Source: Pseudomonadota bacterium (lineage in GTDB: Bacteria > Pseudomonadota > Gammaproteobacteria > Burkholderiales > JAJZUU01). Taken from it: a stretch of 37,652 bases of DNA. The stretch lies in the NCBI GenBank assembly GCA_021848325.1, contig JAJZUU010000025.1, positions 1-37,652 on the forward strand, read 5' to 3'. The position numbers were made by a program, and so were the translations under genes. Position 1 is the stretch's first letter. Each line of letters begins with the position of its first letter. Shown here piece by piece: positions 6,943 to 37,526 of the stretch. Under the pieces are notes generated by a model that was not told the origin of the DNA, made no database searches, and was given only the letters and a program-made list of their open reading frames with translations.

Positions 6943-7110
6943 CTAGGAGCCTGTCGGACTTGAAGAATCGAAGCGAAAATTCGGCTGGTCGAGGACAGAT
7001 TTTGTCGATTTTGCAGGTCAATAGTCGTTCTATTGACCAAAAAAGCGGCGAAATATGGACCGGTCAGGCGGATTTGCAGCCGATTTCCTTTAAGTCCGAC
7101 AGGCTCCTAG
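6943..7110. mobile_element. MITE-like element, copy 1 (CTAG-flanked)
   Basis: A 160-bp element (6947-7106) flanked by CTAG on both sides (6943-6946, 7107-7110), consistent with a 4-bp target duplication. Terminal inverted repeats are GAGCCTGTCGGACTT and its exact complement. Inside is a second perfect 9-bp hairpin, GGTCAATAG / CTATTGACC (7016-7024, 7030-7038). It has no meaningful coding capacity. A copy that appears identical base for base lies at 21837-22004. The parent transposase is not in the window. The left CTAG has no gene running into it. The right CTAG supplies the stop codon of the small gene on the minus strand. Confidence 0.85.
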
Positions 7111-7275
7111 GCCCCCGGCCATGAGACACCCTGATATCCGAGGTGTTCCAAGCCGTTTTCCATGCAGGAGATGCCGCACCAGAACCTCACCCCCCGCCAG
7201 GGCGACCACCTCGCCCTCTTCCAGCGGCTGCCAGGATTCATCGGTCAGCGGCACACTCGCCACGAGAGCAACCAC
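7107..7275 (-). pseudogene. Small gene downstream of trxC, apparently frameshifted in a run of six G
   Basis: From a GTG at 7275 the minus strand reads ALVASVPLTDESWQPLEEGE then VVALAG, with GAGGAG about 12 bases upstream. After the G run (C run at 7190-7195 on the plus strand) this frame becomes uncharacteristic. The frame one base away continues convincingly as VRFWCGISCMENGLEHLGYQ then GVSWPGA, with TAG at 7107-7109. Dropping one G joins the halves into about 55 residues. The stop is formed by the CTAG at the MITE border. The family is unknown to me. It may be an old frameshift, a phase-variable tract or a sequencing error. Confidence 0.45.
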
Positions 7276-7291: not shown

Positions 7292-7723
7292 TCAGCGCCC
7301 CTGTGTCCAACGCACGATATCGGCGGCGCTCATCGCGCCGGCCTGGCGGGCGACCTCGCGTCCGTCGCGGAACAAGACCAGCGTGGGAATGCTGCGAATG
7401 CCAAAGCGGGCGGCGGGCTCCCGTTCTACCTCGGTATTGAGCTTGGCCAGGCGCACCTGCGGCTCCAGTTGGGCCGCCGCCTGCTCGAAGGCGGGCCCCA
7501 TCATCTTGCACGGCCCGCACCAGGGCGCCCAGAAATCCACCAGAACGGGAATGTCGTTGCGCCCGATGTGTTTCTCGAAGTTGCGGGCTGTCAGCTCCAC
7601 GGGACGGGAGTTGAAAAGCGGCTGGTGACATCGGCCGCACCCGGGCCTGTCGGCAAGGCGGGCTGCCGGTATCCGGTTTATGGCATCACAGCGGGGACAG
7701 ACGACTTGTACTGCATCACTCAC
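7292..7723 (-). CDS. trxC: Thioredoxin 2 (zinc-binding thioredoxin TrxC)
   Basis: The 143-residue cytoplasmic disulfide reductase has the N-terminal zinc-finger extension typical of TrxC: cysteine pairs C9/C12 (CPRC) and C29/C32 (CGRC). A thioredoxin fold follows with active site WCGPC (C69, C72), PVLVDFWAPW before it and the cis-proline segment IRSIPTLVLF after it. The start is GTG at 7723, supported by AAGGAG at 7730-7735. It reduces protein disulfides, with a role in oxidative stress in relatives. A small, possibly frameshifted gene follows at once and may share its transcript. Length and motifs are normal. Confidence 0.95.
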   Translation of the reverse strand: MSDAVQVVCPRCDAINRIPAARLADRPGCGRCHQPLFNSRPVELTARNFEKHIGRNDIPVLVDFWAPWCGPCKMMGPAFEQAAAQLEPQVRLAKLNTEVEREPAARFGIRSIPTLVLFRDGREVARQAGAMSAADIVRWTQGR

Positions 7724-21193: not shown

Positions 21194-21273
21194 GATTACT
21201 CCTGACTGAACGAATAGTTGGGCCCGGGCTTATAATGGAGCCTTCTCAAGGCCTGCGCACGCGATTGCCGCCC

Positions 21274-21840
21274 ATGACCCGTATCCTGCTGTTCAACAAA
21301 CCCTGGGGCGTCATCAGCCAGTTCAGCGGCGATGACCGGCATCCGACCCTCAAGGACTTCATCCGGCTCCCCGGCGTCTATCCGGCCGGCCGGTTGGATA
21401 CCGACAGCGAAGGACTGCTTATTCTAACCGATGACGGCCAACTGCAACACCGGATCAGTCATCCCCGCCATAAGCTGCCCAAGACCTACTGGGTCCAGGT
21501 GGAAGGGATCCCGGACCAGGTGGCCCTGAAAAAACTGGGGGCGGGCGTGGACCTGGCGGACTTCGTCACCAGCCCTGCCAAAACACGCGTCATGGAAGAA
21601 CCGGCAGGGCTGTGGCCGCGCACCCCGCCCATCCGCTTCCGCAAAAACATTCCGGCCACATGGCTGGAGTTGACCATCCGGGAGGGAAAGAATCGCCAGG
21701 TGCGGCGCATGACCGCCAAGGTCGGCCACCCCACCCTGCGCTTGATCCGCTACCGGATCGGCGACTGGACCATCGAAGGCCTGCCGCCGGGCGGTTGGCG
21801 CGAAGCGCAGGTTACCCGCTTGCGCGGGCCCGCCGACTAG
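21274..21840 (+). CDS. rluE: Ribosomal large-subunit pseudouridine synthase RluE
   Basis: The 188-residue protein is of the RsuA/RluB/RluE family. It begins [20 protein letters not shown]. The catalytic Asp is in [27 protein letters not shown]-type and [19 protein letters not shown] motifs follow near the C-terminus. RluE modifies U2457 of 23S rRNA in E. coli. I chose ATG 21274 because the earlier ATG (21235) sits inside a TATAAT -10-like box (21231-21236) and the added residues are not family-like. The TAG stop (21838-21840) lies in the CTAG flanking the MITE copy at 21837. The final residues GPAD read normally, so the protein was not damaged. Confidence 0.92.
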
Positions 21841-22004
21841 GAGCCTGTCGGACTTGAAGAATCGAAGCGAAAATTCGGCTGGTCGAGGACAGATTTTGTC
21901 GATTTTGCAGGTCAATAGTCGTTCTATTGACCAAAAAAGCGGCGAAATATGGACCGGTCAGGCGGATTTGCAGCCGATTTCCTTTAAGTCCGACAGGCTC
22001 CTAG
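21837..22004. mobile_element. MITE-like element, copy 2 (CTAG-flanked)
   Basis: This copy appears base-for-base identical to the element at 6943-7110, with the same length, the same CTAG on both flanks and the same terminal repeats AGGAGCCTGTCGGACTT / AAGTCCGACAGGCTCCT. Sequence outside the CTAGs differs, so this is an independent insertion rather than part of a larger duplication. It abuts rluE so that the left CTAG holds the rluE stop codon. Identity of both copies suggests recent spread or strong constraint. Confidence 0.88.

Positions 22005-35849: not shown

Positions 35850-37526
<1,677 letters not shown>

Follow-up and report, generated by a model that had tools for sequence, protein, structure and literature searches.

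The window, by which we mean the whole 37,652-nucleotide stretch that was analyzed, holds two copies of a short repeat bounded on each side by CTAG (Table 1). As the initial annotation had stated, direct comparison shows no difference between the two over exactly 168 bp (100% identity), and their outer flanks are unrelated. Perfect 15-bp terminal inverted repeats (GAGCCTGTCGGACTT) lie directly inside the CTAGs. Within the window this end matches exactly at four places and, with up to three mismatches allowed, at seven; shuffled sequences predict 1.18 of the latter, and none reached seven, so the matches are not due to chance. The 168-bp element forms one long hairpin (predicted fold −94.1 kcal/mol, z = −12.3). 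The longest frame through it encodes an unremarkable 54 amino acids, and it has no transposase gene of its own. A search of the window against Rfam at gathering thresholds gave no match, and neither did a search of a plasmid collection.

Table 1. Coordinates of the two copies and of neighboring features in the window.
Feature	Position	Strand	Remark
MITE copy 1, including both flanking CTAGs	6943..7110	+	168 bp
Left CTAG, copy 1	6943..6946	.	one copy of the 4-bp target duplication
Left terminal inverted repeat, copy 1	6947..6961	+	GAGCCTGTCGGACTT
Open frame weakly matching the C-terminal region of GATase_4	7090..7275	-	runs into copy 1, stops at the element's TAA
Right terminal inverted repeat, copy 1	7092..7106	-	
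Right CTAG, copy 1	7107..7110	.	second copy of the target duplication
rluE-like pseudouridine synthase gene	21235..21840	+	TAG stop inside left CTAG of copy 2; alternative start 21274
MITE copy 2, including both flanking CTAGs	21837..22004	+	168 bp, identical to copy 1
Left CTAG, copy 2	21837..21840	.	21838-21840 is the TAG stop codon of rluE
Left terminal inverted repeat, copy 2	21841..21855	+	
Right terminal inverted repeat, copy 2	21986..22000	-	
Right CTAG, copy 2	22001..22004	.	
REP-like repeat, MITE-free member (CTGG)	37152..37271	+	MITE-bearing at two other loci

Both copies had been placed on TAG stop codons. For copy 2 this is confirmed: the rluE-like reading frame matches Pfam PseudoU_synth_2, has a codon score of +55.6 and ends at about the same place as its homologues, and the element sits on its TAG. 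For copy 1 the assignment is not supported. The 44-aa minus-strand ORF (7107-7241) that ends in this CTAG has a codon score of −3.9 and no Pfam match. The frame resembling GATase_4 scores 19.2 bits (E = 6e-4), below the 23-bit cut-off, and reads the CTAG as CTA; with the element removed, it would end two codons later (...GLE*). It lies between trxC (7292-7723, minus strand) and copy 1, with no room for the rest of a gene. This frame may be what is left of the C-terminus of a class-II glutamine amidotransferase (GATase_4), in which case copy 1 lies at a gene end but off its stop codon.

The element is abundant in the host assembly (3.0 Mb in 119 contigs), which contains about 102 left and 102 right ends. 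Pairing the first 100 left and first 100 right ends listed gave at least 80 full-length copies, of which 41 measure 168 bp, 38 measure 207 bp and one measures 208 bp, and left 40 single ends, many of them at contig ends. Among these ends, the element occupies about 120 dispersed places in near-identical form. The 207-bp form carries 39 extra bases relative to the 168-bp form, and mean distances to the consensus are 1.4 bases for the longer class and 1.8 for the shorter. Across 300 sampled genomes of the bacterial order, the exact end CTAGGAGCCTGTCGGACTT occurs in 24, the host included. Because the 207-bp class is also present in genomes of other families (L098 in G272; G144:C27:14574-14780; G255:C93:13723-13929), both length classes seem either to be older than the burst in the host genome or to have spread between lineages. 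Minimal hairpins, consisting of the two terminal repeats and an 18-bp loop, were seen in the host (L147:1333-1390, G000:C40) and in a second genome (G043:C1:2578893-2578948); the host example is flanked by CCAG and CAAG, degenerate from CTAG. The name miniature inverted-repeat transposable element (MITE), given in the initial annotation, is borne out by what the family consists of: short elements in many dispersed places, perfect terminal inverted repeats, no transposase or other coding gene, and a CTAG duplication typical of the partner insertion sequence described below.

CTAG was present on both sides in 80 of the 81 host copies readable at both flanks, as expected if the element targets this word; the odd copy has CAAG on one side. 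Beyond the CTAG, the flanks of the 81 copies share no conserved base. A second genome, G061, has CTAG on both sides of 30 of its 40 copies; of the remaining ten, nine have it on one side, a pattern that ageing copies would show. CTAG is also rare in the host, as had been said of many proteobacterial genomes: the window contains 19, where dinucleotide shuffles predict 58.9. In 0.4 Mb of the host genome there are 221 against 416 expected from trinucleotides, about a two-fold deficit.

Sites without the MITE, compared as paralogs within the host genome, show how the second CTAG arises. A second repeat family of 105-283 bp, here called family B, has CTAG at its ends. About 12 of its loci are MITE-free and carry a single CTAG, whereas eight of the 81 MITE copies have landed in ends of family B and are flanked by a CTAG on each side. 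Family B, a repeated landing place for the MITE, has ends AAACGGCAGTTGACCG (loci L303-L332, for example L312, and L129, L186 and L148), with CTAG at both ends in the eight family-B copies listed. Outside the CTAG it has a symmetric TTNAAC/GTTNAA, which suggests that the CTAG lies inside longer inverted repeats. A REP-like repeat, of which the window holds a MITE-free member, is occupied at two other loci (L140 and L185) with CTAG on both sides. Joining their flanks with one CTAG restores the repeat over 116-120 aligned bp at 92.5-93% identity. With a single CTAG in MITE-free sites and one on each side when occupied, the simplest reading is that CTAG is a duplicated 4-bp target; the REP-like members hit by the MITE would on this reading be variants with CTAG. 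Orthologous empty sites could not be read in close relatives: a scan of named genomes for rluE yielded distant relatives alone, none above 76% protein identity, and between G061 and its genus mates identity was about 79-89%, with a synteny break at one copy and intergenic sites not resolved.

The CTAG might instead be part of the element, inserted without duplication or by replacement as in IS1272, with the neighboring genes shortened by an imported TAG. IS1272, which is classed with the IS1182 family, takes the place of an inverted repeat without duplicating its target (PMC5678879), and the diverged REP-like paralog in the window has CTGG, the one exception among MITE-free paralogous sites that otherwise carry a single CTAG. 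We consider an imported CTAG very unlikely, given that empty family-B sites carry one CTAG at the corresponding position, that the joined flanks restore the REP-like repeat, and that the genes which stop at the element are complete. Their products reach the end of their family models: GatB 474/475, PII 112/112, NusG 171/172, ExoIII 254/255, rubredoxin 53/54, ArgJ 377/377, FlgI 343/343, TldD 220/220, COQ7 169/169 and CyaY 106/107. Shortening by the element's TAG is ruled out for these genes and, in the families tested, the stops are natural. Inverted-repeat replacement of the IS1272 type was likewise rejected, on the single and paired CTAGs of empty and occupied sites.

A longer transposon with the same ends does exist. 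In genome G163, a 1586-bp element has at both ends the same 19 terminal bases as the MITE, counting the CTAGs. Two overlapping frames in it contain DUF772 and DDE_Tnp_1 domains, and their best NCBIfam match is IS1182. Two further genomes (G264 and G200) contain IS1182 homologs whose nearly MITE-identical ends adjoin CTAG. The host itself has a single IS1182 transposase gene, which encodes 439 aa and scores 313.8 bits (cut-off 270); its left end, CTAG-CAGCCTGTCGGGCTT, is similar to that of the MITE. Its contig stops close to the gene's 3' end, within sequence that recurs elsewhere in the genome (L179, 99% over 108 bp) and is probably another insertion sequence that breaks the contig. In the last 127 bases of L124/L373 (G000:C100) the IS1182 gene runs into L179-type sequence, and from this junction it looks to be interrupted by another repeat. 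The host assembly yielded no intact IS1182 element. A homolog at E <= 1e-60 occurs in only four of the 300 genomes, though 24 hold MITE ends, which leaves most MITE-bearing genomes without a close partner in their assembly. The ends and CTAG flanks that the MITE has in common with these IS1182 elements indicate that it is a non-autonomous IS1182-type MITE. The same evidence bears on whether it could be a REP-type repeat moved by a RAYT (Y1) transposase. High copy number, a palindromic form and a location mostly outside genes would all suit a REP sequence, but a 4-bp target duplication and ends in common with DDE insertion sequences contradict this origin, and we give it hardly any weight.

We then asked where the copies lie relative to genes. 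Gene calls came from a simple model of codon usage, applied to 0.4 Mb surrounding the copies after the flanks had been joined; free CTAGs were counted over the same DNA once the ends of the element and of family B had been masked. Of 81 copies, 32 (40%) lie on a predicted TAG stop, 45 are intergenic and four are inside genes; for 128 free CTAGs the corresponding numbers are 23 (18%), 64 and 41. Compared with free CTAGs, copies are enriched at stops (odds ratio 3.0, p = 0.0007) and depleted within genes (odds ratio 0.11, p = 1.5e-6). The proposal that copies sit on stop codons and so spare proteins therefore stands in part: many do, and the genes tested are complete, but this is not true of each copy, since about 40% are at stops and most are intergenic. 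Nor do stop codons in the host genome show any special richness in CTAG: among 76 element-free TAG stops of genes of at least 100 codons, C precedes 18 (24%).

The depletion inside genes leaves a narrower question, whether stops are favored over intergenic CTAGs. With family-B copies left out, copies are 2.4 times as frequent at stops (p = 0.012), and pooling three genomes gives an odds ratio of 2.2. Tests in G061 and G043 point in the same direction but are not significant (G061: ratio 1.5, p = 0.56). The preference is weak. It could reflect active steering to gene 3' ends, for example by transcription termination or local DNA structure, beyond CTAG choice and selection. However, selection against insertions in promoters or leaders could yield the same excess, and intergenic copies are found in divergent, co-directional and convergent gaps alike. 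We regard steering as unlikely, and a dedicated stop-codon-sparing transposon, whose IS1182 transposase is guided to gene 3' ends, as improbable. The "strategy" of neutral sites envisaged in the initial annotation is not demonstrated; CTAG choice and the loss of in-gene insertions by selection account for most of the distribution.

A further possibility is that the host retains the hairpins for its own use, as bidirectional terminators or as stabilizers of mRNA 3' ends behind stops. The folds are strong and in 32 copies start at the stop codon. Yet the orientation of element to gene is evenly split (16 agree and 16 disagree), no terminator-like T run follows the hairpin, most copies are away from stops, and their near identity points to recent spread, not long retention. 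Such a function is a doubtful explanation at best, and we put little credence in it.

Very probably, then, the element is a non-autonomous palindromic MITE mobilized in trans by an IS1182-family DDE transposase, with a duplicated CTAG target and selection against insertions in genes. This account builds on things observed: the copies, their ends, the duplicated CTAG, the ends in common with IS1182, the excess at natural stops and the depletion in genes. The transposase would recognize the terminal repeats, cut the MITE at GAGCC and join it to a CTAG, which would be duplicated in the process. As CTAG is its own reverse complement and reads TAG on both strands, the stop would be rebuilt on both sides of the insertion, and a gene ending there on either strand would keep its stop and an unchanged protein. 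Each element end also adds stops in a second frame, through CTA GGA GCC TGT CGG ACT TGA at one end and TAA at the other; the third frame is open. Insertions elsewhere in genes would mostly be lost by selection, leaving the surviving copies at gene ends and between genes, where for most of them harm to the host is small.

Known elements share parts of this picture. The IS1182-family elements compared here (NCBIfam NF033551) carry their transposase genes within 15-bp ends that are identical or nearly identical to those of the MITE and adjoin CTAG, whereas the MITE encodes no protein and has only the terminal 19-20 bases in common with the G163 element. The comparison links a MITE family, seen in 24 of the 300 genomes sampled from one bacterial order, to IS1182-type transposases. 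Palindromic targets are reported for some members of the IS1182 family (PMC5678879), and IS1272 resembles the partner of the host MITE in its family and in the palindromic nature of its targets; its described mechanism replaces an inverted repeat of 22-30 bp without target duplication (PMC5678879), whereas IS1182-type elements here duplicate a 4-bp CTAG. MITEPsy1 of Pseudomonas syringae, a 100-nt element that moved in vivo, is likewise short and duplicates a 4-nt target, CTAG or YTAA (PMC3189936). It differs in its ends, GGAAGGTCTGAAAAAGCC, and in its origin, being tentatively placed under IS5 and derived from ISPsy2; six copies are described, two of them interrupting loci, and the consulted passages of that report mention no stop-codon pattern (PMC3189936). 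A search of the literature on CTAG MITEs and IS1182, with most subscription journals outside its coverage, found no report of a stop-codon preference. MITEs with a CTAG duplication are thus already known, as the consulted passages on MITEPsy1 attest (PMC3189936). What the host MITE adds is an unusually clear and countable case in which the target word of a transposon, an under-represented 4-bp palindrome with TAG on both strands, limits the damage to its host.
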